NCBI RefSeq assembly: GCF_001456115.1
Contig: NZ_CP013264.1
Location: 3,924,501 to 3,988,500, forward strand
Origin: Sphingobium baderi
Lineage (GTDB): Bacteria; Pseudomonadota; Alphaproteobacteria; Sphingomonadales; Sphingomonadaceae
Direction of reading: 5' to 3'
DNA: 64,000 bases
In this document: in pieces, positions 50,207 through 63,685 of the stretch
Layout: the number at the start of each line of letters is the position of its first letter
Numbering within the stretch: position 1 is the stretch's first letter
Notes under the pieces: model-generated
Told to the model about the DNA's origin: nothing
Seen by the model: the letters and a program-made list of their open reading frames with translations, nothing else
Databases searched by the model: none
Position numbers and translations under genes: made by a program

Positions 50207-50306
50207 TGCCTGATCCGAAATTAAAGTGATTGGTATCAGCTGGTTAGACTGACGGCATGGCCTGTCGTTGATTCATGGGTTTTGCGAAAACTACCAAAGA
50301 TCACCG

Positions 50307-51093
50307 ATGTGGACCGATACCACTCGTGCGCTTCATGCGCGACGCGGGCTGATTTTGCCAAGTGATTTGACGGATGCCGAGTGGGCGGTGCTTGAACCAC
50401 TGTTGCCACCGGCGTCACATGTGGCGCGGCCGCGCAAATGGCCGATGCGACGGATTGTCGAAGCGATACTGTTCCTGCTGCGTGGTGGCCTACCATGGCG
50501 GATGCTGCCTCCCTGTTTTCCGCCGGCCTCGACAGTGCGGCGCTGGCTTTACCTCTGGCGCGAAACCGGCCGGTGGCTGACGATGAACCATGTTTTGCTT
50601 ATGGCATGCCGCGAGATGACGGGCCGGGAGGCATCGCCATCGGCGGGTGTGATCGACAGCCAGAGCGTCAAAACCGCGGAAAGCGGAGGCCTTTGCGGCT
50701 ATGATGCTAGCAAGAAGGTCAAGGGACGAAAGCGTCATATCCTGACCGACACCGAGGGAAATCTGGTGCACGCGGTGATCCACACCGCTGATATTCAGGA
50801 CCGCGACGGTGCGCCGATGGTGCTGCGCGAAATCATCCGGCGCTTTCCGTGGCTGCGGCACGTCTTCGCCGATGGCGGCTATGCTGGCGACAAACTCCGG
50901 GAGGCTTTGCGGCGAATGGGGAAATGGACCGTTGAAATCATTAAGCGGTCAGACACCGCCAAAGGCTTTGAGGCGCTGCCCCGCCGGTGGGTTGTCGAAC
51001 GCACGCTGGCTTGGCTCAATCGAAACCGACGTCTCGCCAAGGACTTCGAACAAACCATCGCATCGGCAACGGCATGGCTTTTCATCGCATCCA
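50307..51093 (+). pseudogene. IS5-family transposase, 3'-truncated
   Basis: MWTDTTRALHARRGL at 50307 and DDE motifs are intact: GVIDSQSVKTAE, FADGGYAGDKL and RRWVVERTLAWLNRNRRLAKDFE. The family usually ends ATAWLFIAS plus about ten residues; here the coding match stops at that point (51093) and the frame runs on to 51452 through unrelated sequence. No right inverted repeat seen, so the element is cut at its 3' end. Transposase activity is doubtful. Confidence 0.75.
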
Positions 51094-51099
51094 AGGACG

Positions 51100-51480
51100 T
51101 CGGCGAGTTTCTCCAAGCTACAGACTGCATTCCGGGATCGCGCGTGAGCGCGACATCAGAATCTTGGTCACCGGCAGGAAAAACTGGCTGTGCGGCGATA
51201 CTGTCGCCGGCGCTAGGGCAAGCCATGCCTACCGAAAAATTTTTTGTCGCCACTATCTTTTCGAGTTTCGCCAGGAAGAAGCGCTCACTCCATAGTCCGA
51301 GCGACTTTGCCTCCGTCGGGCGTAAAAAACGTCTGACATCTTCGGCGGCGGCCTCCCAGGCTATAGCACCTATCGTGTTTCGCCGCGTGCCCTTCAACCA
51401 CGCAACGTCGTTGTGCCCCGCCCATGGGCCTGCCTGGATCAGCGCGGCCTGAAGATGCATCAGATTGACAGATACTCCGT
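51100..51480 (-). pseudogene. Unrecognised ORF remnant
   Basis: Minus strand frame reads LQAALIQAGPWAGHNDVAWLKG, NTIGAIAWEAAAEDVRRFL and LGLWSERFFLAKLEKIVA, which looks like a genuine protein by composition, but it has no start and is fused at both ends to other remnants. I could not assign it to a family. Confidence 0.35.
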
Positions 51481-51889: not shown

Positions 51890-52552
51890 ATGCTCTTTCT
51901 TGCACATCGTGGATTATGGACTGCGCTGGATGCGCGCAACAGTCGGTCTGGTCTGAAAGCGGCGTTCGAACTGGGTTTCGGTGTTGAAACCGACATTCGG
52001 GATTTCGACGGGCGATTGGTGATCAGTCATGACATGGCTACTCCAGATTCGCTTCCGCTGTCCGTCATGCTTGCTGACTATGATGCTGCTGGAAGGCCGG
52101 GTCAGTTGGCTCTAAACGTCAAGGCAGACGGTCTTACTGCAGCCTTGATCGAGGAGTTGGACACTTTTGCGGGCATGCGTCAAAACGCGTTCGTATTTGA
52201 TATGTCTGTTCCAGACACCATTCAATATATCGGCAAGGGATTACAGGTTTTTACTAGGCATAGTGAATATGAACCCACGCCGCCGCTTGAAATGCAGTCC
52301 CAAGGGGTATGGATGGACTGCTTTGTAAATGCGTGGGTCGATCCCGATGCGATTATGGAGCGCATGAGAAGAGGTCAAAAGGTCGCTATTGTCTCCCCGG
52401 AGCTCCATAAGCGCGATATCTATCATAGATTTTGGAAAATTTTGAAGGGTCGGATTAAAAAATCCGATCTTTGTGCTGATATATTGAATGATAATTTGAT
52501 GCTATGCACCGATTTCCCAAGGGAAGCTGCAGAATTTTTCAAGGATTTGTGA
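51890..52552 (+). CDS. Glycerophosphodiester phosphodiesterase-like protein
   Basis: 220 residues; ATG at 51890 has AAGGG upstream. TIM-barrel GDPD signature is complete: H6-R7-G8 (LAHRGLW), E33-x-D35 (GVETDIRD) and H47 (VISHDM). It is shorter than typical GDPDs (about 250-300). In its context, likely acts on a phosphodiester of a surface glycan or its precursor; that is inference. Base composition drops here compared with the first 49 kb. Its TGA overlaps the next ATG (TGATG). Confidence 0.75.
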   Translation: MLFLAHRGLWTALDARNSRSGLKAAFELGFGVETDIRDFDGRLVISHDMATPDSLPLSVMLADYDAAGRPGQLALNVKADGLTAALIEELDTFAGMRQNAFVFDMSVPDTIQYIGKGLQVFTRHSEYEPTPPLEMQSQGVWMDCFVNAWVDPDAIMERMRRGQKVAIVSPELHKRDIYHRFWKILKGRIKKSDLCADILNDNLMLCTDFPREAAEFFKDL

Positions 52553-53178
52553 TGACCATTAAAGCAATATTGTTCGATATGGACGGTGTTCTCATCGAAG
52601 CTAAAGATTGGCATTATGAGGCTCTGAATCAGGCTCTGGATTTGTTCGGGATGCCGATAGATCGTCATGCCCACCTCGCCACTTTCGACGGGCTTCCAAC
52701 GAAAAGAAAATTGGAAATTCTTGGGATAGCCCACGGGCTACCTGCTCAGCTTCATGGCTTCATAAACGAGATGAAGCAAAACTTTACTGAAACGCTAGTT
52801 TATTCAAGCTGCCGCCCTACATTTCATCACCAATATGCGCTTAGCAAATTAAAGGCTGATGGATATAAGATTGCAGTATGCTCCAACTCGGTTAGGGCTA
52901 CTGTCTCATTGATGATGAAATTGTCTAAGCTGGATCGTTATTTGGATTTTCAACTTTCGAATGAGGATGTTGAAAAGGCGAAGCCGGCCCCGGATATCTA
53001 TTTGGAGGCTATGCGTCGCCTTGATTTGGCTCCCCACGAATGCTTGATTGTTGAAGATAATGACCATGGATTCCAGGCCGCTCAAGCCAGCGGTGGACAT
53101 GTCATGCGCGTCGGAACAACAGAAGACGTCACGTTCGATCGGATCAACGCAGCAATAACCAGCATTCAAGGAAATTAA
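52552..53178 (+). CDS. HAD-family phosphatase or phosphomutase (beta-PGM-like)
   Basis: 208 residues with nucleophile D9 and acid D11 (ILFDMDGVLIE), a helical cap (about 16-80), CSNSVRATV and VEDNDHGFQAAQASG with metal-binding Asp. Beta-phosphoglucomutase/GPH-like subfamily. Could dephosphorylate or isomerise a sugar phosphate that the following nucleotidyltransferase activates. Coupled to genes on both sides. Confidence 0.8.
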   Translation: MTIKAILFDMDGVLIEAKDWHYEALNQALDLFGMPIDRHAHLATFDGLPTKRKLEILGIAHGLPAQLHGFINEMKQNFTETLVYSSCRPTFHHQYALSKLKADGYKIAVCSNSVRATVSLMMKLSKLDRYLDFQLSNEDVEKAKPAPDIYLEAMRRLDLAPHECLIVEDNDHGFQAAQASGGHVMRVGTTEDVTFDRINAAITSIQGN

Positions 53179-53179
53179 T

Positions 53180-54709
53180 GTGAATATTCTTGTCCCCGTC
53201 GCTGGTGCCACGCCCTATTTTTCAAGCGAGGAGTTCCCTTTCCCCAAACCGCTTATTGAAATTGCCAACCGACCGATGATCGCCTGGGCAGTTGAAAATC
53301 TGCAAGCATTGGAAGGTGAAAACAAGTTCATCTTCGTCACCATGCAAGACGAAGCCGTTAAATACTCATATGAGCATGTGTTGCGCCTTCTGGCAGGAGA
53401 TAATGTTGAGGTTGTAAAGCTCTCGGCTCGGACGGCGGGCGCTTTGTGCAGCTGCCTTATGGCTATCGAGCATATCTCTCCAGACGAGCCACTGGTAATC
53501 GCGAATTACGATCAAGTTATTGATGGCGAATTCCACGATCTGATTTCTCGCTTCAAGGAACTTGGTGCAGACGCCGGTGTGCTGACTTTCGATGCTACCC
53601 ATCCACGTTGGTCTTACGTGAAGACGAGCGGCGCCGAGGTCGTTGAAGCTGCCGAGAAGCGGGTAATTTCACGTCAAGCGATAGCCGGAATGTATTGGTT
53701 CGCTAGAGGCGCCGACTTTATCGCTGCTGCGCTGGAAACAATTCGCGTCAATGATAGCGTGGATGAGCAGTTTTTCGTCGCACCAGTGCTGAACCAGTTG
53801 GTGCTTGCCGGGAAGCGGGTGGCTGCTATCCCGATGCGCGACAATTCAAAAATGCATAGCTTCTTCCTGCCTGCTCGTATTCAGGTCTTCGAGCAAGAGC
53901 TTCAGGTTGAAGGCGTTGCCGCCAAGGCGAGGGACGAGGGGGGCTTAAATTTGGTCAATGTTGTGATCCCGGCCGCTGGCGAAGGCTCGCGCTTTGCCAA
54001 GGCCGGCTACACCGCACCAAAACCGTTCATTGATGTGGTCGGCAAGCCGATGCTTGCCCATGTGATCGAAAATGTCGCTGTACGGAACGCTAAATTCACG
54101 CTGCTCCTCCGCGAAGACCATCTGGCGCAATATGCTGGAACCATTAGCGGTGGAAGAGATGTTGATCTTACCATTATGCCGGTAGCTCAGCTTACCGAAG
54201 GGACAGCATGTACCTTACTTTTGGCGCGAAAGCATTTCGACACCGCAGCGCCGCTTCTGGTGGCAAACTCAGACCAGTTGGTTGAGTTTGATTGCCAGGA
54301 TTTTGTTGATGATGCCCGTAAGCGGGGCCTTGATGGATCAATCCTTGTTTTTCGGGATATCGAACGCAATCCGAAATGGTCATTCGCTGCGCTCGACGAG
54401 AATGGCCATGTGACAGAAGTGGCTGAAAAAAAGGCGATATCTGATTTGGCGACCGTTGGGATTTATCTGTTCATGAACGGAACGGAATTCGTCAGAGCCG
54501 CTGTTGACATGATTGCTCATAATGATCGCGTCAATAATGAGTTCTATACGTGCCCGGTTTATAACTACTTGATCAAGAATGGTGCCAAAATCGGTGTCTA
54601 CGAAGTGCCTTCGGCTGCAATGTCCGGATTGGGCACGCCAGAGGATCTGGATAGCTATTTGATGCGTACTGTGGGCGATAACGCTCGGTCACTACACGCA
54701 CCAGCTTGA
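53180..54709 (+). CDS. Tandem nucleotidyltransferase-domain protein
   Basis: 509 residues from the GTG at 53180 (AAGGAA six bases upstream). Two GT-A-like NTP-transferase domains. Domain 1 (1-250) has an altered signature, VPVAGATPYFSSEEFPFPKPL, and NYDQ as the metal site. Domain 2 (257-500) is canonical, IPAAGEGSRFAKAGYTAPKP, with NSDQ and EVAEKKAISDLATVG. Domain 2 should couple a sugar- or polyol-phosphate to CTP/UTP/GTP; domain 1 may be regulatory or act on a second substrate. A fusion of two such domains is unusual. Confidence 0.78.
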   Translation: MNILVPVAGATPYFSSEEFPFPKPLIEIANRPMIAWAVENLQALEGENKFIFVTMQDEAVKYSYEHVLRLLAGDNVEVVKLSARTAGALCSCLMAIEHISPDEPLVIANYDQVIDGEFHDLISRFKELGADAGVLTFDATHPRWSYVKTSGAEVVEAAEKRVISRQAIAGMYWFARGADFIAAALETIRVNDSVDEQFFVAPVLNQLVLAGKRVAAIPMRDNSKMHSFFLPARIQVFEQELQVEGVAAKARDEGGLNLVNVVIPAAGEGSRFAKAGYTAPKPFIDVVGKPMLAHVIENVAVRNAKFTLLLREDHLAQYAGTISGGRDVDLTIMPVAQLTEGTACTLLLARKHFDTAAPLLVANSDQLVEFDCQDFVDDARKRGLDGSILVFRDIERNPKWSFAALDENGHVTEVAEKKAISDLATVGIYLFMNGTEFVRAAVDMIAHNDRVNNEFYTCPVYNYLIKNGAKIGVYEVPSAAMSGLGTPEDLDSYLMRTVGDNARSLHAPA

Positions 54710-54713
54710 TCTC

Positions 54714-55406
54714 ATGGAAATAGTCATCCCCTTGGCCGGTCCAGACTTTGAACGGCCTGATGGCTTTACGAAGGCTGAAATAACCATTGATGGCACGCCG
54801 CTGCTGGTGCGCGCGCTGACATCGCGTTCATGGTGGCGGCGCGGGGAAGTTTCAGCCTCTGACTCGATCTTTGTGCTTAAAGATACTGAATGCAGCCGGG
54901 CATTTGCTGCCCGAAGCTTGCTCAAATGGTTCCCCGGTGCCCGTACAATATATCTTTCCCATCCAACTGCCGGGGCGGCATTTTCAGCTATGGCCGGTGT
55001 AGCCGTCTGCGACCCCACCAAACTTCTTTGTGTCGACCTTGCTGATATCCTTTACGATGAGGCGTACGAGCCTGAAAGCATCTTCTCTGCCGACCCAAAT
55101 CTTGGAGGCATGGTTCCAGTATTTCGGGCTGATAACCCGATATATAGCTACGTTGAGTTGGGCAGTGATGGGAAAGTAATAAGAACAGCCGAGAAGAGCA
55201 TGATTTCTTCCGATGCATCGGCGGGCACTTATTTTTTTCGGGATGCATCAGTTTATTCAATGGCGGTGGGTCATGCTATCCGTAACCGACAAGAACAGAC
55301 ATATCGCGATATTTATTTCATATGCCCATTATTTAACGGTGTGATCTTCGCTGGTCATGATGTCCGAACGTTCGATGTGAATAATGTCATAGACATAAAA
55401 ATTTAA
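54714..55406 (+). CDS. Nucleotidyltransferase-like protein, degenerate
   Basis: 230 residues, same fold as the domains in the preceding gene (FSAMAGVAVCDPTKLLCVDLAD; SYVELGSDGKVIRTAEKSMISSDASAGTYFFRD), but the nucleotide-binding signature is changed to IPLAGPDFERPDGFTKAE and the metal site to LAD. Four bases after the tandem protein. It may be a non-catalytic partner. Followed by IS debris, so the operon may have been cut here. Confidence 0.65.
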   Translation: MEIVIPLAGPDFERPDGFTKAEITIDGTPLLVRALTSRSWWRRGEVSASDSIFVLKDTECSRAFAARSLLKWFPGARTIYLSHPTAGAAFSAMAGVAVCDPTKLLCVDLADILYDEAYEPESIFSADPNLGGMVPVFRADNPIYSYVELGSDGKVIRTAEKSMISSDASAGTYFFRDASVYSMAVGHAIRNRQEQTYRDIYFICPLFNGVIFAGHDVRTFDVNNVIDIKI

Positions 55407-55871: not shown

Positions 55872-56090
55872 CTATATATCGTGGTCGGCGATGAGCGTTG
55901 TGAGGTTTTCGACGCCGTATTCGGTAAATGCCATCGCGCCGTCCGGACGATCAAGGCTGTACACCCAGATCAGCCCGTCTTCCGGGTCCATGCCCGACGC
56001 GAGTTCAGCAATCAGATCTTCTTCGACGCTTAGATGACGCGCTACGAGTGCGATCGTGCTGACCGAATGGACCTTGTTAACGTGCGCCAT
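55872..56090 (-). CDS. Small accessory ORF at the end of the IS66 element
   Basis: 72 residues from the ATG at 56090, which overlaps the tnpC stop (TGATG). Sequence features: KVHSVSTIALVARHLSVEED, GMDPEDGLIWVYS and AMAFTEYGVENLTTLI. Not a transposase domain I recognise. Its coupling to tnpC suggests that it is translated. Role unknown. Confidence 0.55.
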   Translation of the reverse strand: MAHVNKVHSVSTIALVARHLSVEEDLIAELASGMDPEDGLIWVYSLDRPDGAMAFTEYGVENLTTLIADHDI

Positions 56091-57742
56091 CAAGCTGCGA
56101 TTCTGGCTCGCCCAGATTCCCAGTTCCAGGGCAGTAGTTCGTCGATCCGGTGGGCAGGATGTCCGGCGATGCGCGCGAGGACATCGGCCAGCCACGCCTG
56201 CGGATCGACATCGTTGAGCCGGGCCGTCTGGATCAGCGTGTAGAGCACGGCCGCGCGCTGTCCGCCGCGGTCGGAACCGCAGAACAGCCATGCCTTGCGG
56301 CCAAGCGGCACACAGCGCAGCGCCCGCTCGGCAGCGTTGTTCGTGATGCAGATCCGGCCATCATCGAGGAACCGGGTGAAGGCACCCCAGCGCCGGAGCA
56401 TATAGTTGATGGCCTTGGCCATATCATGGCTGCGCGACAGCTTCGCGAGCTGCGCGGTGAGCCAGGCGTGCAGGCCCGCCATCAGCGGCGCGCTGCGTTC
56501 CTGCCGGAGTGCAACACGCTCGCCTGGCGTTTTGCCGTTGATGCCGCGCTCGATCTCGAACAGGGCATCGAGGCGCTGCACGGCTTCTAGCGCGATCGGG
56601 TAGATCATGCCGTTGCGTCCGCCGCGGCTTCTCCTGCGCGCGGCTCCCTCGACATCGGCCAGCTCGAAGAATTTGCGCCGTGCATGCGCGAAGCAGCCCG
56701 CCTCGATCACGGGTGCTGGCTGACGACCGGGAGCGTAAAGCTCGTTGTAGCCGCCATAGGCATCGGCCTGCAGGATCCCTGCCCAGGACGCCAGATGCTC
56801 CCGTGGATGCTCACCGCGCCGATCGCGGGAATAGTGGAACAAGGCTGCTGGCGGATCGGAGCCGGCGAAGGGCCGGTCATCGCGCACATAAACCCACAGG
56901 CGCGCCGTATCGGTCTTGCCCTTCGCCATGACCGGCACGGTCGTATCGTCGCCATGGATCCGGGCTGCATCCAGCACATGGGCTTCGATCCGCCGGTAGA
57001 GCGGCATGAGTGCGAAGGCGGCGGCACCGACCTGATCGGCCAGGGTCGAGGTGCTGAGCGCTACGCCTTCGCGGGCGAAGCGCTCGGCCTGCCGGTTGAG
57101 GGGCTGGTGCTGACCGTACTTCTCAAAAAGTAGCATGGCGAGGAAGCTGGGCCCGGCCCATCCGCGCGGCACGACATGGAACGGCGCCGGGGGCTGCGTA
57201 ATCGTCTCGCAATCCCGGCAGGAGAACTTCTCACGCACCGTCCGGATCACCTTCCACTGGCGCGGGATCACTTCCAGCGTCTCGGTGATATCCTCTCCCA
57301 GCTTTGACAGACGCGCGCTGCCGCAGGACGGGCACGAACAGGGCGCGGGGATGACGACGCGTTCGCGGGGCAGATGTTCGGGGAACGGCTTGCGGCTCGG
57401 GCGCTTGCGGTCGAACGCGGCAACCTCGCTCGTCTTCGCCGGAGCGGCTTCGGCAGCGCAATCATTCTCGCAGGCATCGGCCTCGAGATCTTCGAGCTGC
57501 AATTCCAACTGGTCGAGCAGACGTCGGCTGCGTTCGGCGCTGGCGCCATATTGCTCGCGACGCAGCCTGGCGATCTGCAGCTTGAGGTGCGCGATCAGCG
57601 CCTCGATCGCGCTCTCGCGGGCCCTGGCCTTGGCAAGGCGTGCCTCGGCATCATCGGCGCGTGAGAGCGCGGCGGCCAGCAGCGCCTTGAGCGCTTCGAC
57701 GTCGTCCGGCAGGGGCGATGCGGCCGTGTCCATAAGGGGCAT
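56090..57742 (-). CDS. tnpC: IS66 transposase TnpC
   Basis: About 550 residues from the ATG at 57742 (another at 57733). N-terminal helix/coiled coil (about 10-70), Cys-rich zinc site (CSCPSCGSARL; FSCRDC), and DDE domain with HGDDTTVPV, QADAYGGYNELY and the C-terminal NNAAERALR containing the catalytic Glu. Intact, main transposase of the element. Confidence 0.93.
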   Translation of the reverse strand: MPLMDTAASPLPDDVEALKALLAAALSRADDAEARLAKARARESAIEALIAHLKLQIARLRREQYGASAERSRRLLDQLELQLEDLEADACENDCAAEAAPAKTSEVAAFDRKRPSRKPFPEHLPRERVVIPAPCSCPSCGSARLSKLGEDITETLEVIPRQWKVIRTVREKFSCRDCETITQPPAPFHVVPRGWAGPSFLAMLLFEKYGQHQPLNRQAERFAREGVALSTSTLADQVGAAAFALMPLYRRIEAHVLDAARIHGDDTTVPVMAKGKTDTARLWVYVRDDRPFAGSDPPAALFHYSRDRRGEHPREHLASWAGILQADAYGGYNELYAPGRQPAPVIEAGCFAHARRKFFELADVEGAARRRSRGGRNGMIYPIALEAVQRLDALFEIERGINGKTPGERVALRQERSAPLMAGLHAWLTAQLAKLSRSHDMAKAINYMLRRWGAFTRFLDDGRICITNNAAERALRCVPLGRKAWLFCGSDRGGQRAAVLYTLIQTARLNDVDPQAWLADVLARIAGHPAHRIDELLPWNWESGRARIAA

Positions 57743-57806
57743 GGAATCACAGATCGGCCTTCGGTCAAAGCCCAAAATGCGCCAGCCAACGAAGAAAATG
57801 CAGCCC

Positions 57807-58148
57807 CTATCCGGCGCTCTGCGGACGCCATGAATATTGCGGGTTACGCCAGTCGATCCCCTCCAGCAGGCAGGACAATTGGGCATTGGTCAGCGAGACG
57901 ATGCCCTCTCTCGCCGAGGGCCAGACGAAGCGACCCTTCTCGAGCCGTTTGGCATAAAGCGACATGCCGATGCCGTCGTGCCAGATGATCTTGACCAGCG
58001 ATCCCGTCCGCCCTCGGAACACGAACAGGTCGCCGCCATGTGGATCGCGCTTCAGGCCCTGCTGAACCTGCAAGGCCAACCCCTGCATGCCCTTGCGCAT
58101 GTCCGTGTGGCCCATCGCGATCCAGACCCTCGCGCCCGATGGGATCAT
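57807..58148 (-). CDS. tnpB: IS66 accessory protein TnpB
   Basis: 113 residues: ARVWIAMGHTDMRKGMQGLA, LFVFRGRTGSLVKIIWHDGIG and FVWPSAREGIVSLTNAQLSCLL are the standard IS66 Orf2 motifs. ATG overlaps the tnpA stop (ATGA). Required with TnpA and TnpC for transposition in studied IS66 elements. Confidence 0.94.
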   Translation of the reverse strand: MIPSGARVWIAMGHTDMRKGMQGLALQVQQGLKRDPHGGDLFVFRGRTGSLVKIIWHDGIGMSLYAKRLEKGRFVWPSAREGIVSLTNAQLSCLLEGIDWRNPQYSWRPQSAG

Positions 58149-58510
58149 CGCAGCGCCTTCAAGGTCGCCGAAACCAGTGCGGCAGGCGCATTCGACGAAA
58201 TGCGCACGCACCGACCATTGCCAAGATCGACCGTGACCGCGGCACACGGATCGTGATCGGCAGGCTGCTCATCATCGGCGAGCACGGCCTGGGCGAAATT
58301 TATCTCCGGTACCGGCAAGGACGCAGCCGCCGACTGTTCGCGCAACTTGCGACGCCATGTGTAGATCAGGCTGGTCGAAACGTCGCGCCGCCGCGATACA
58401 TCGGCAACGCAGGCGCCCGGCGCAAAGGCCTCGGCGAGGATCTCAATCCGCTCCTCCTCGCTCCAACGCCGACGACGCTCCGGCCCCGTCATCACCGTGA
58501 TCTGACCCAT
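58145..58510 (-). CDS. tnpA: IS66 accessory protein TnpA
   Basis: 121 residues; helix-turn-helix of the transposase_8 type (RRRRWSEEERIEILAEAFA ... VADVSRRRDVSTSLIYTWRR). GGAGCGG site before the ATG at 58510. First gene of the element, likely read from a promoter in the right end. Confidence 0.92.
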   Translation of the reverse strand: MGQITVMTGPERRRRWSEEERIEILAEAFAPGACVADVSRRRDVSTSLIYTWRRKLREQSAAASLPVPEINFAQAVLADDEQPADHDPCAAVTVDLGNGRCVRISSNAPAALVSATLKALR

Positions 58511-58587: not shown

Positions 58588-58860
58588 ATGGGTACGAAGA
58601 GAACGAGGTTTTCAGAAGAGCAGATCATCGGGGTGCTGAAGGAAGCCGAGGCGGGCGCGAAGACCGCCGATCTGGCCCGGCGGCACGGGGTTTCCGAAGC
58701 GACGATCTACAACTGGAAGTCGAAGTATGGCGGGATGGAAGTGTCCGACGCCCGCCGACTGAAGGAACTCGAGAGCGAGAACGCGAAGCTCAAGCGGCTG
58801 CTGGCCGATGCGATGCTGGACAAGGCTGCGCTGAAGGGTCTTCTGGCAAAAAAGTTCTGA
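58588..58860 (+). CDS. IS3 OrfA (transposase N-terminal part)
   Basis: 90 residues, helix-turn-helix: [41 protein letters not shown], and a leucine-zipper-like C terminus. The ATG at 58588 lies in the IS66 right end (ATGGGTAC); the original start was the ATG at 55833. The frame therefore begins MGTKRTRF instead of MKRTRF. Ends just past an A6G slip site (58848-58854). Confidence 0.88.
58596..58603. repeat. IS66 target-site duplication, right copy
   Basis: GAAGAGAA, identical to 55835-55842. Confidence 0.9.
58848..58854 (+). promoter_or_regulatory. Programmed -1 frameshift site of the IS3 transposase
   Basis: AAAAAAG shortly before the orfA stop, with orfB open in the -1 frame (reading [14 protein letters not shown] onward). 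A classical IS3 slippery heptamer for making the OrfAB fusion. Confidence 0.75.
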
Positions 58861-59765
58861 CGCCCGCCGCGAAGCGGGAAGCTGTCGCTCATCTCCAGGC
58901 CTGCCACGGGATGAGCGAGCGGCGGGCGTGCCGTGTCATCGATGCCGATCGCATGAGCGTGCGTTACCGTTCCGCACGGGACGATGATGCTGGTCTGCGC
59001 GAGAAGCTGCGCGAGTTGGCCAACCAGCGTCGCCGGTTCGGCTATCGTCGTCTGCATATCCTGCTGCGCCGGGAGGGGATCATGATCAACCGCAAGAAGA
59101 CCCAGAGGCTCTACCGTGAGGAAGGGCTGGCGGTCAGGCGAAGACGTAGCCGCAGGCGTGCTGTCGGCACGAGAGCACCTGCTCCGGTTCTGGCGCTTCC
59201 GAACCAGCGCTGGAGCCTGGACTTCGTTCACGACCAGATGGCTTCGGGAAGACGGTTCCGCGTGCTCAACGTAGTCGATGACGTGACCAGGGAGTGCCTG
59301 GCAGCCGTGCCGGACACATCGATCTCGGGTCGCCGGGTAGTGCGCGAGCTGACCGAGCTGATCGAACGGCGTGGCAAGCCCGGCATGATCGTCAGCGACA
59401 ATGGCACGGAACTCACCAGCAATGCGGTACTGGCATGGTGCGGCGAGATCGGCGTTGAGTGGCATTACATCGCGCCGGGAAGGCCGATGCAGAACGGATA
59501 CGTCGAGAGCTTCAACGGTCGCATGCGTGACGAGCTTCTCAACGAAACACTGTTCATGAGCATGACCCATGCTCGGTTTGAGATCGCTGCTTGGGTAGAA
59601 GACTACAACCGGGAGAGGCCGCACTCATCGCTTGGCTACGCAACCCCGGCGGCATTCGCCGCCGAACTGGATAGGCAATGGCCTGCTTCGCTACGCCCTA
59701 CGGGCTCCGCTACGCAGCCCATTGCTTCAACCGCGCTCATGCGCAAAACAACCGCCCGGCTCTAA
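58854..59765 (+). CDS. IS3 OrfB (DDE transposase, expressed by frameshift)
   Basis: Integrase-core transposase: [10 protein letters not shown] and VVDDVT (Asp), [10 protein letters not shown] (Asp) and [13 protein letters not shown] (Glu). The first in-frame ATG is at 58911, but production as an OrfAB fusion by -1 frameshift at 58848 is the family rule. Ends [20 protein letters not shown]. Intact. Confidence 0.88.
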
Positions 59766-59873: not shown

Positions 59874-60872
59874 TCAAGACGCAAAGAAGCGCGTCACCCG
59901 CTCCTTGAACTTCTGAGGCTTGCGAAACGGATAGGTGACTGCGCGTATGAACATCGGCGGCTTTTTCTTGAGTTCCGGCTGCCCGCTAGAGGGCACCCCG
60001 CCCTGAACCTTCTCATACAACAGCTTTTCATCTGGATTCCGGCGCATCCACTCGAACGAGAAATGATGGTCAGTGTGGTATTTCGGGAAATGGATCGGGA
60101 ATAGCCGGTCCGGCACTGAGATGATGTGTGTAGAGAAATAGAACTCGCTAAGTGCAATCACTTCCTTGCACATATCAGCATAGTGCCGAATATCCACTGG
60201 CACTTTCTTCGCTACCGCACTGGTCATGACATACTGTTCTGGCGCAAGCTTTGACAGATCAGCAAGGCGAAATCGGTTCGGCTGTGAATGATCGAGAAAG
60301 TGATAAGCCTCCTCATCGCTTTGCAGCGAGATATCCCATAGTGCCAGGATATCTTCCCGCAACCCGAAGCTCGCATGGTCGGACGGATGGAACGGTAACG
60401 GATGATTTGGAAGCCGCTCCAAGATCTGCGACGTATTGCGGGACGACAGGTTGTTCGTGACGATCGGGCGCGAAAAGATATTGCGCTTGTCCGTCTTTAG
60501 CGGTTTGGCTTTCTCAAAAACTTCAATGAATTCAATGCCCTGCAACACCATGTCGGTCCGGATTTTCAGGGCATATTTCCGCGTCGCAGCTTTCAATCCA
60601 GCAACGGTGCTGACAATCTGCCGGTTCACGTTGTTCGGCACAAAACTAGGCCAGGTTCCTTGTGGGCCGGGATCCTTGCTCTGGACGATCTTGTCGAACC
60701 CAAAGTCGTCAACCTTCTGATTTGCCCAAGTAGAAAGGATCACCTCTGCGTCGGGAAGCAACTTACGAACGTTTTGATACAGGGCAAAGGTGATGCCGAG
60801 TCCGCTGACAGGGTCATGTGTCCAATCGACGGGCCCTTGCATGATAACGCTGATATCGTTGCTATCGATCAT
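59874..60872 (-). CDS. WavE-like polysaccharide biosynthesis protein
   Basis: 332 residues. N terminus SVIMQGPVDWTHDPVSGLG, then LLPDAEVILSTWANQ and ALKIRTDMVLQG are the marks of the WavE lipopolysaccharide-synthesis family, named from Vibrio cholerae core-LPS genes. Enzymatic step not established; a glycosyltransferase is likely. No signal peptide. It overlaps the upstream GT2 gene by four bases. Confidence 0.72.
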   Translation of the reverse strand: MIDSNDISVIMQGPVDWTHDPVSGLGITFALYQNVRKLLPDAEVILSTWANQKVDDFGFDKIVQSKDPGPQGTWPSFVPNNVNRQIVSTVAGLKAATRKYALKIRTDMVLQGIEFIEVFEKAKPLKTDKRNIFSRPIVTNNLSSRNTSQILERLPNHPLPFHPSDHASFGLREDILALWDISLQSDEEAYHFLDHSQPNRFRLADLSKLAPEQYVMTSAVAKKVPVDIRHYADMCKEVIALSEFYFSTHIISVPDRLFPIHFPKYHTDHHFSFEWMRRNPDEKLLYEKVQGGVPSSGQPELKKKPPMFIRAVTYPFRKPQKFKERVTRFFAS

Positions 60873-62257
60873 GCCTGTTCCCCCGGATGCGCCTTGCGGA
60901 AGTGTTGCTTGATACCGCCTCCGATCAACCGGCTATAGAGTTTGGCCGGAAATTTCGCGAATAGTTCGGTCATGAGATTGCGCCAAGACTGAGCCTCTAT
61001 GCCGTGAGAGATGCCGAGTTCGTGAGAAATTATCTGATCGATCTTATAGAGCAGCACGAGTTGATAGAAGTCCTGATTTTTGTCAAATTGAGCAAGCGTA
61101 TGGTCGACCGATGCCTTGAGACACGCTTGCTTGTGCCCAGCTGACACGTCGTGCCAAGTCTGGGTAGTCTGACCGCCTCGTTCGCGGCGATAGTGATAGA
61201 GAGTCAGATTACAAAAAGCCGGATTCTTGGCGTGCTGCATCAACGACAGGGAAAATGGCAAATCCTCATAGAGCGTGAGGTTACACATTGCCTTGAGCGC
61301 CGCATTACGGACATTGGCGGAAAAGAAGTTCATCCAGATCGTGTGATTGAGGTCAGCTAACTCCTTGGCGTCTTCATCTTTAGTCGGCTTCGGCATCAAC
61401 ACTTCCACCTCTGGCTCCGGCGACGGATACGTCCAGCCCCAGAAGTGGCGGTTTAGGTCGTTATAGAGGTCATACCCAAACTGCACGAGATCGCTCTTGA
61501 GATTGAGCGCAGTCATGAGCACGTACTCGACCGCATCGTCGTTCAGCCAATCGTCGCCATCGATAATAAGAAAATAATCGCCTGTGGCATGCTCAAGGCC
61601 GACACGGCGCGCGCCGTTGGCGCCAAGATCCACATTGTGCAGATGGATACGTGAATCGAATTTTGCCATGCTCTCGATGCGTGAAGCAGTGCCATCCTTT
61701 GAACCGTCATCGACCACGACCACCTCGATGTTAGGATAGGTCTGGTTTAGGCAAGAGATCAGCGCGTGGCAGATATGATTCTCAATATCCTTTGCAATGA
61801 CGATGATGCTGACCTTTTTGTTTTGCCCCATCTTAAGTACTTCGGGCCGGACGGATTGTGCATAAGGAAGATGGGCCAGCGCATTTCGATAGGGGATTAT
61901 GTGCGAAACGATCTCAGACTCATATTCGCTGGTAATTTCGATGATCTCGCCGGTATCGATGCGGATAACCTCTCCCTCTGCGACATGAACGCCGTTGATG
62001 GTGACCGTCCCCTTCGCAACTCCAAGAAACTCGGTGCCGCGGCGGTTAAAGCGAGCGGTGATTCTCTGCCCGGGCTTCAGGGTCTGTCGCAGGGTTTTTG
62101 CGTCGGGTTTCAGATAATGGTATCCAAATGTTCTCTGCGCTAACGCAATTAGATAGCTTTCCACTTGGGATGGCATACGCAACAGGCCGCCATGTTCATT
62201 GTCGTTTTCTGAAGCGATCTCGCCCCCCGACGAATTTCGAATCTGCAAATCAGCCAC
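60869..62257 (-). CDS. GT2 glycosyltransferase with an N-terminal beta-rich domain
   Basis: 462 residues from a GTG at 62257 (an in-frame ATG at 62176 is an alternative). Residues about 28-145 form a beta-rich, carbohydrate-binding-like domain; from about 146 a GT-A domain with VSIIVIAKDIENHI, VVVVDDGSKDGT and the DxD motif IDGDDWLNDD. The acceptor is unknown. Likely extends a surface glycan. Confidence 0.78.
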   Translation of the reverse strand: MADLQIRNSSGGEIASENDNEHGGLLRMPSQVESYLIALAQRTFGYHYLKPDAKTLRQTLKPGQRITARFNRRGTEFLGVAKGTVTINGVHVAEGEVIRIDTGEIIEITSEYESEIVSHIIPYRNALAHLPYAQSVRPEVLKMGQNKKVSIIVIAKDIENHICHALISCLNQTYPNIEVVVVDDGSKDGTASRIESMAKFDSRIHLHNVDLGANGARRVGLEHATGDYFLIIDGDDWLNDDAVEYVLMTALNLKSDLVQFGYDLYNDLNRHFWGWTYPSPEPEVEVLMPKPTKDEDAKELADLNHTIWMNFFSANVRNAALKAMCNLTLYEDLPFSLSLMQHAKNPAFCNLTLYHYRRERGGQTTQTWHDVSAGHKQACLKASVDHTLAQFDKNQDFYQLVLLYKIDQIISHELGISHGIEAQSWRNLMTELFAKFPAKLYSRLIGGGIKQHFRKAHPGEQA

Positions 62258-62494: not shown

Positions 62495-63685
62495 ATGGAT
62501 ATCGCTCGCGTCAGCACCGAAACGGACGCAAAAGGATTTGAGAGTGGCCAGCATGGCAAGAGCCATCGTACCCGCGCTCCCGCAATGATCGTAAACAAGA
62601 TCAAGAACTTGCGTCCAGTATTCTTGACTACGGTGGTTATCCCGACGCTGCTGGCGGCGCTATATTTCGGGCTGCTTGCATCAGACGTCTACATTTCCGA
62701 GTCTCGGTTCATCGTCCGAAGCCCCGACAAGCCCGCTCCGACTGGATTTGGCGTATTGCTGAAGGGGGCGAGCCTGGCAGGTGCAGGAGAAGAAATATAC
62801 GCCGCCCAAGATTACGTAGCGTCGCGAGATGCACTCCAAGCCCTGAATAAGGATGGCGCATTCACGCGCGCTTATGGCACGACAGCGGTGTCCTTTTTCG
62901 ACCGCTTCAACGCCGGTGGCTTTCATCCCACCTTTGAAGATCTATACAAATATTATGAAAAGAAAGTGTCGGTTGCACATGACACTACCTCCTCCATCGT
63001 CACGCTGACGGTGCGTGCCTTCACCCCCCGGGATGCACAGCACTTCAATGAGCAATTGCTCGAGATGGCAGAAGCAACAGTGAACAAGCTCAATGACCGG
63101 GGGCGGCAAGATCTAATCCGCTTTGCCAGCCGAGAAGTTGATGACGCAAAGGCGAAGTCACAGGCCGCAGCACTAGCGCTTTCGGCATACAGAAACCAGG
63201 CTGGCGTTGTTGATCCGGAAAAGCAAGCTACAGTGCAGATCCAGATGATCTCCAAGCTTCAAGACGAACTCATTGCCACTCGCACGCAACTGCTTGAATT
63301 GAGAGCGTTTGCTCCCCAAAACCCTCAGGTTGAAGTGTTGGTTACGCGAGCCAGGGGACTCAGCGGGGAAATCGATGAGCAACTGGGTCTGGTCGCCGGC
63401 AGCCAGAAATCTCTTTCATCTCGTGCTGCTCAATATCAGCGTCTGGCGCTGGAAAGCCAATTTGCCGACAAGCAATTGGCCAGTGCAATGACATCCCTCG
63501 AGGAAGCACGGAATGAAGCCCGCCGCAAGCAGGCCTATGTTGAACGCATCGTTCAGCCCAACCTGCCGGACGATGCTCTGGAGCCCCGTCGGCTTCGCGG
63601 TATAATTTCGACCTTCATTCTCGGGATCGTCGCATGGGGCGTCATAAGTATGCTGATAGCCGGTGTGCTGGAGCACAAGGACTAA
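62495..63685 (+). CDS. kpsE: Capsule polysaccharide export inner-membrane protein (KpsE/CtrB family)
   Basis: 396 residues: two transmembrane helices (about 43-64 and 370-390) flanking a periplasmic coiled-coil region (DDAKAKSQAAALALSAYRNQ; QLASAMTSLEEARNEARRKQ). SDVYISESRFIVRSPDKP is typical of the KpsE/BexC/CtrB group. Spans the envelope with KpsD in ABC-dependent capsule export. Starts divergently from the GT2 gene. Confidence 0.88.
   Translation: MDIARVSTETDAKGFESGQHGKSHRTRAPAMIVNKIKNLRPVFLTTVVIPTLLAALYFGLLASDVYISESRFIVRSPDKPAPTGFGVLLKGASLAGAGEEIYAAQDYVASRDALQALNKDGAFTRAYGTTAVSFFDRFNAGGFHPTFEDLYKYYEKKVSVAHDTTSSIVTLTVRAFTPRDAQHFNEQLLEMAEATVNKLNDRGRQDLIRFASREVDDAKAKSQAAALALSAYRNQAGVVDPEKQATVQIQMISKLQDELIATRTQLLELRAFAPQNPQVEVLVTRARGLSGEIDEQLGLVAGSQKSLSSRAAQYQRLALESQFADKQLASAMTSLEEARNEARRKQAYVERIVQPNLPDDALEPRRLRGIISTFILGIVAWGVISMLIAGVLEHKD

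Follow-up and report, generated by a model that had tools for sequence, protein, structure and literature searches.

Four plus-strand genes at positions 51890-55406 of a 64,000-nucleotide stretch of a Sphingobium baderi genome (contig NZ_CP013264.1; the whole stretch is called the window below) represent a conserved cassette that, with a probability of about 0.52 by our estimate, makes one nucleotide-activated sugar, phospho-sugar, or polyol donor for a surface polysaccharide (capsule or lipopolysaccharide, LPS), with a WavE-type transferase as the probable user in many cases. The composition of the cassette, which combines a canonical pyrophosphorylase, a phosphatase or mutase, and a diester enzyme, argues for synthesis of an activated donor, and its company (WavE, exporters, and glycosyltransferases) points to a surface glycan. 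The module encodes a GDPD-like protein, a HAD protein, a fusion of two nucleotidyltransferase-type domains (NTa=NTb), and a third nucleotidyltransferase-like protein (NTL), arranged as follows.

51890-52552, + strand: GDPD-like gene (ATG at 51890, stop codon ending at 52552; 220 aa), GDPD fold with a predicted altered metal site
52552-53178, + strand: HAD gene (ATG at 52552; 208 aa), HAD-superfamily phosphatase or phosphomutase
53180-54709, + strand: NTa=NTb fusion gene (GTG start; 509 aa)
53180-53926, + strand: NTa, the N-terminal half of the fusion, nucleotidyltransferase-like but without the GxGxR Arg and the C-terminal Asp
53954-54709, + strand: NTb, the C-terminal nucleotidyltransferase domain of the fusion, with the full signature
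54714-55406, + strand: NTL gene (ATG start; 230 aa), degenerate nucleotidyltransferase-like protein, in the place held by a cupin in most examined cassettes

The first-pass annotation of this DNA had described four coupled genes with overlaps or gaps of at most four bases, and a check of the open reading frames (ORFs) bore this out: the GDPD-like and HAD genes overlap by 1 base, and gaps of 1 base and 4 bases separate HAD from the fusion and the fusion from NTL. The GC content is 49.5% for 51893-55406 versus 64.3% for positions 1-50000, and insertion sequences flank the module on either side. The lower GC content had been taken to suggest transfer, and our analysis supports the module as coupled, probably transferred, and capsule-associated.

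With the GDPD-like family as query, 574 pattern matches and 511 relatives came out of the genome contigs, and the 80 best relatives were examined throughout. Because a HAD gene lies no more than 400 nt downstream of the GDPD gene in 76 of the 80 loci, conservation of the pair is far beyond chance. GDPD, HAD, NTa, NTb, and one fifth part (a small cupin or NTL) are found inside 6 kb in 70 of the 80. Among the ten incomplete loci, six (L004, L008, L037, L039, L059, and L082) are near contig ends, three from Helicobacter bilis and rappini (L062, L064, and L068) have no NTb inside 6 kb, and L009 holds GDPD and WavE only. The four genes are thus conserved together across phyla, a check on which the earlier proposal had been made to depend. 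Record titles of the relatives include Campylobacter, Helicobacter, Vibrio, Pedobacter, Nostoc, Planctomycetota, Lachnospiraceae, and Rhizobium; the cassette itself ranges over Campylobacter, Helicobacter, Bacteroidota, cyanobacteria, Clostridia, and Sphingobium, often among glycan genes.

The cassette is horizontally spread and its distribution is patchy. Within the genus, 4 of 94 genomes, the source genome among them, have a strong GDPD relative; 8 of the 94 match the GDPD profile, 4 of these at 21-23 bits only. In a sample of the phylum, the profile matches 52 of 398 genomes at E 0.001: 2 matches are of the cassette type (at least 242 bits, source genome included), 5 are divergent (67-78 bits), and the others, at 35.5 bits or less, were taken as ordinary GDPDs. 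A GDPD relative is also present in 25 plasmid records, annotated as a hypothetical protein in 20, and the 4 of the 25 that were inspected carry no product name. When the Pantoea cassette (L028:7235-10283) was compared with E. coli for a counterpart with a known antigen, no match was found in distant mode. A variant locus, L137:8501-11304, encodes a HAD=NTb fusion beside a small GDPD-like protein of another kind (AHRAN type) and an uncharacterised gene.

The GDPD-like protein has the GDPD barrel fold and scores 12.6 bits against the Pfam GDPD model (PF03009), below the cut-off of 23.6; a PF03009 search of the source genome matches another gene only, not that of the module. In an alignment of 81 sequences (numbered from 51893), His5 is present in 80, the remaining one having a gap, and Arg6, Glu32, Asp34, His46, Asn75, and Lys77 are kept in all 81. 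We take His5 and His46 to be the two catalytic histidines and Glu32-x-Asp34 to be metal ligands, and we assume that Asn75 stands where GDPDs carry the third acidic metal ligand (ExK strand); it aligns with a Glu of 1o1z, in a stretch of the profile alignment that is not significant alone. Judged from the sequences, the metal site is altered, with Asn in place of the third acidic ligand. Of the full catalytic set initially assigned to this protein, the His, Arg, Glu-x-Asp, and Lys residues stand, whereas the Asn at the third acidic place and the missed Pfam cut-off speak against the label. The same two features, together with its position in a nucleotidyltransferase cassette, distinguish the protein from the GDPDs 2pz0, 3no3, 1v8e, and GlpQ. 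It starts straight at the first barrel strand, with no space for a secretion signal, and is therefore expected in the cytosol.

The GDPD fold would also suit salvage of a head group, in which the GDPD-like protein cleaves a phospholipid-derived glycerophosphodiester and NTb activates the phospho-alcohol, so that the product is a phospho-substituent and not a sugar; a comparable link, from GlpQ to LicC, probably operates in phosphocholine decoration. Kinase-looking genes accompany GDPD-like and NTb-like genes in the variant loci L151 and L113 (judged by eye), and the phage locus L237, described below, has one annotated kinase, both in line with such a route. We nevertheless regard it as improbable, because the genes that recur in the cassette comprise a HAD but no kinase (the 80 loci were not scanned for kinases), the residue at the third metal-ligand position differs, and the scheme leaves the cupin and NTL without a role.

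The HAD protein matches Pfam HAD_2 (PF13419) with 116 bits (cut-off 23.8) and contains the motifs DMDGV, CSNS, KPAPD, and VEDND, to which we assigned the HAD motif roles by assumption. None of the beta-phosphoglucomutase models reaches its cut-off on this protein (88.5 bits against 189.4 for TIGR01990; 109.6 against 153.35 for TIGR02009). The original description as a beta-phosphoglucomutase-like HAD is therefore sound in its second half and loose in its first.

Among the nucleotidyltransferase-type domains, only NTb appears to keep a full pyrophosphorylase site. Its signature reads GEGSRF, PKPF, NSDQ, EK, and GTPEDL, and the residues checked (GxGxR, PKP, EK, and the C-terminal Asp), which presumably have the roles that they play in sugar-phosphate nucleotidyltransferases (PF00483), are kept in 68-69 of 69 NTb sequences. 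The Arg of GxGxR is found in 0 of 76 NTa and 0 of 19 NTL sequences; the C-terminal Asp is found in 1 of the 76 NTa sequences, and its column is a gap in 19/19 NTL sequences, in which a conserved Asp227 near the C-terminus could fill the role. NTL scores 12.3 bits against PF00483, short of the cut-off of 21.2, yet its AlphaFold 2 model (mean pLDDT 96.1) retrieves 4evw as the best structure in Foldseek, along with RmlA entries, at E values of 2e-14 to 1e-10 among the matches listed, and so has a nucleotidyltransferase fold. These observations agree with the initial reading of one canonical domain (NTb, the second half of the fusion), one altered domain (NTa, the first half), and a third, related protein without the usual signature. 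In comparison with RmlA-type sugar-phosphate nucleotidyltransferases, to which the closest structure by sequence is 4evw, NTb has the full signature and NTa and NTL are members of that superfamily; however, the fusion scores 104.6 on the RmlA model, with a cut-off of 320.25, and NTa and NTL have lost two catalytic residues. On a tree of the nucleotidyltransferase domains NTL forms a single clade (support 1.0), but NTa has a support of 0.216 and the outgroup is not monophyletic, so we make no call on the source domain of NTL.

Degenerate sites in NTa and NTL would also be expected if these were regulatory subunits of a system that makes no donor, with the GDPD-like protein hydrolyzing a diester of a finished glycan or lipid. 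The related GMPPB/GMPPA family, in which GMPPB is catalytic and GMPPA its non-catalytic partner, offers a parallel. The fully canonical NTb and the expected cytosolic location of the GDPD-like protein argue against editing or regulation of this kind, which we consider the least probable of the alternatives.

Several loci depart from this domain arrangement. The NTa place in L108:2767-3192 holds a strongly degenerate protein of 141 aa, and a gene of the same length occupies it in a Scandinavium plasmid (L103:10261-10686), which suggests that further reduction of NTa is possible. A SnoaL/NTF2-like domain is in frame with NTa in L020, L025, and L049 and with NTb in L031, and is a separate copy near the cupin in other cassettes; it is present in 16 of the 80 loci.

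The fifth part of the cassette is a small cupin (mostly 105-133 aa) in 52 of the 80 loci and NTL in 18; no locus has both, whether inside 6 kb or in the entire fetched stretch. Across whole genomes, the cupin profile has no match in 19 NTL genomes, the source genome included, and detects its target in 10/10 cupin genomes tried as a positive control (at least 143 bits). The NTL profile reaches 201 bits or more in each of 9 NTL genomes tested but does not exceed 100.7 bits in 28 tested cupin genomes, a level spanned by the scores of NTa and NTb on the same profile in NTL genomes (62-117 bits). On a FastTree tree of the four shared proteins, concatenated for 70 cassettes (51 with cupin and 19 with NTL, counting that of the window; the cupin locus L047 fell outside through a length filter), the fifth part has changed state at least three times. 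The cupin cassette L029, whose NTa and NTb are fused, groups with 17 NTL cassettes (support of the clade 0.999); conversely, L061 of Sporomusa, which has NTL and unfused NTa and NTb, groups with 15 cupin cassettes (0.972). Trees built from one protein at a time show 3 or 4 changes, and some of their nodes are weak. The simplest reading of these changes is that cupin and NTL are interchangeable, from which we infer that they share one step.

If cupin and NTL are not equivalent, the cassette exists in two types that make two related but different products, each with its own fifth part. The folds are unrelated, we know of no chemistry common to them, and NTL is one well-supported clade (1.0), all of which would fit two products; in contrast, the same four other genes are kept, and cupin and NTL forms interleave on the tree. 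We therefore consider two products unlikely, though less so than head-group salvage. The exchange constitutes a clean natural experiment, with two unrelated folds in one slot of one gene set. A search for solved relatives of the cassette cupin returned none that is convincing: the best E value, 0.12, belonged to an initiation factor, and the best-matching cupin reached 0.13.

Two kinds of neighbor point to a surface glycan. A WavE gene is present in the fetched flanks of 32 of the 80 loci, and among 190 alphaproteobacterial genomes, sampled evenly, WavE occurs in 3, all within the 4 that have a cassette-type GDPD (hypergeometric probability 3.6e-6; 1.7e-4 without the source genome). The GDPD profile matches 7 of the 190 at E 1e-10, of which the 4 with at least 244 bits were counted and 3 divergent ones (77-87 bits) left out; counting all 7 gives 3.1e-5. 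In one of the three WavE genomes WavE and the cassette are on separate contigs, and the WavE family is absent from 14 of 14 control genomes. The second kind of neighbor is capsule export. In all three same-genus relatives with another strong GDPD match in the 94 genomes searched (L154, L155, and L156, two with NTL and one with cupin), the cassette adjoins genes resembling the capsule-type export genes of the source genome, which supports the earlier link of the module to a capsule.

Related gene sets are found in large phages. Viral contigs contain few members of the GDPD-like family (54 pattern matches, of which 4 are relatives), but the cassette cupin has 466 relatives there. In the best 80 of these 466 loci, HAD is present in 46, NTb in 56, some GDPD-like gene in 61, WavE in 16, and none of these in 9; NTa was left out of this count, as its matches there are cross-hits on NTb. 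HAD and NTb are often fused, and the AHRAN-type GDPD-like protein seen in L137 occurs in 60. HAD, NTb, and cupin often occur together in large-phage contigs, and the Synechococcus phages SynMITS9220M01 and Bellamy have NTb and cupin within ~450 bases. In SynMITS9220M01 (L237:3050-8055), phosphatase, NTb, and cupin-like genes lie in a glycan cluster in which the cupin frame is partly annotated. Only one viral locus has NTa along with all other parts: L150 and L180 overlap within a single 22.7-kb contig, possibly of bacterial origin. The viral collection as a whole may include misassigned bacterial contigs. PHROGs families annotated as being of unknown function match the cupin, GDPD-like, HAD, and NTb proteins, and a second HAD match is to a family named HAD-superfamily hydrolase. 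The phage versions suggest that related chemistry serves phages in remodeling surface sugars.

For the synthesis of an activated donor we envisage the following order. The GDPD-like protein would yield a phosphorylated unit by opening or forming a phosphodiester, the HAD protein would remove or move a phosphate, and NTb would condense the unit with a nucleoside triphosphate. For NTa and NTL, with their degenerate sites, binding of the substrate or the product is one conceivable role and a mixed complex with NTb another; NTL would here fill the job done by the cupin elsewhere, and a WavE-type transferase would use the donor in many cases.

Several points weigh against this interpretation. To our knowledge, no substrate or product has been established for any cassette member. 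The recurrent genes encode nothing that is plainly a sugar-making enzyme, such as a kinase or a reductase, so the precursor must come from elsewhere. WavE cannot be the sole partner, given that the flanks of only 32 of the 80 loci hold it, and one of the four cassette genomes among the 190 has no WavE. Nearly all phage sets have no NTa and carry a different GDPD-like protein. The count of exchanges depends on FastTree trees in which some nodes are weak, chiefly in single-protein trees, and the alternation of cupin and NTL could reflect two different products.

A fuller statement of the same idea, which we advance tentatively and at somewhat less than even odds, is that of an undescribed multi-phylum system, partly shared with large phages, that makes a nucleotide-activated donor for WavE-type transferases, has recruited a GDPD-fold enzyme with a changed metal site, and has repeatedly swapped a degenerate nucleotidyltransferase with a cupin. 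A literature search that reached few subscription papers found neither a published description of the gene set nor a characterised pathway of this composition, in accord with the first-pass view that no named pathway matches it. The CDP-6-D-glucitol pathway of Campylobacter jejuni HS:5 consists of a nucleotidyltransferase and an NAD(P)-oxidoreductase and provides a CDP-activated polyol precursor for capsule (PMC10918830). The cassette resembles it in having a nucleotidyltransferase for a proposed capsule precursor and differs in its GDPD, HAD, and cupin/NTL; no NAD(P)-dependent oxidoreductase is among the genes of the module. The pcg genes of Pasteurella multocida encode a kinase, a permease, a cytidylyltransferase, and a phosphocholine transferase and are next to LPS genes (PMC5577588). 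The likeness lies in a cytidylyltransferase and a transferase adjoining LPS genes; none of the pcg genes, however, is in the cassette, and a choline route by analogy with pcg was rejected on this difference between the gene sets. For sugar clusters of jumbo phages, cupin-fold sugar isomerases, HAD phosphatases, and glycosyltransferases are mentioned, and the nucleotidyltransferases named for sugars are of the HIGH superfamily; the sections consulted describe no GDPD-HAD-NTase-cupin set (PMC7824862). No product came up in the literature search for this cassette, although it ranges from Campylobacter to Clostridia; establishing one would put a name to a component of surface glycans and supply WavE transferases with a candidate donor.

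The surroundings of the module in the window comprise mobile elements and, beyond them, glycan and export genes.

50268-51452, + strand: IS4/5-type transposase, upstream of the module
56090-58247, - strand: IS66-type transposase and TnpB genes, downstream of the module
58588-59765, + strand: transposase pair (HTH_Tnp_1, rve), downstream of the module, presumably IS3-type
59874-60872, - strand: WavE-family transferase (Pfam WavE, PF07507, 157.2 bits, cut-off 27)
60869-62257, - strand: GT2 glycosyltransferase with an N-terminal pirin/cupin-like stretch that is not of the cassette cupin family
62495-63685, + strand: probable capsule export component, which we take to be KpsE-like (not matched by Pfam); the genes after it encode an ABC-2 permease and an ABC ATPase

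Insertion sequences thus stand between the module and its WavE gene. The idea that the cupin has moved into the GT2 protein was rejected, as the cassette cupin profile has no match there or elsewhere in the genome. An ORF of 305 aa antisense to the rve-type transposase (58707-59624) has a counterpart of the same length and sequence start at L001:8001-8918, which corresponds to 67500-68417 in window numbering, past the window end. Because this antisense ORF appears twice, two copies of the rve-type element may bracket the WavE-GT2-export segment, and a composite mobile segment is possible.

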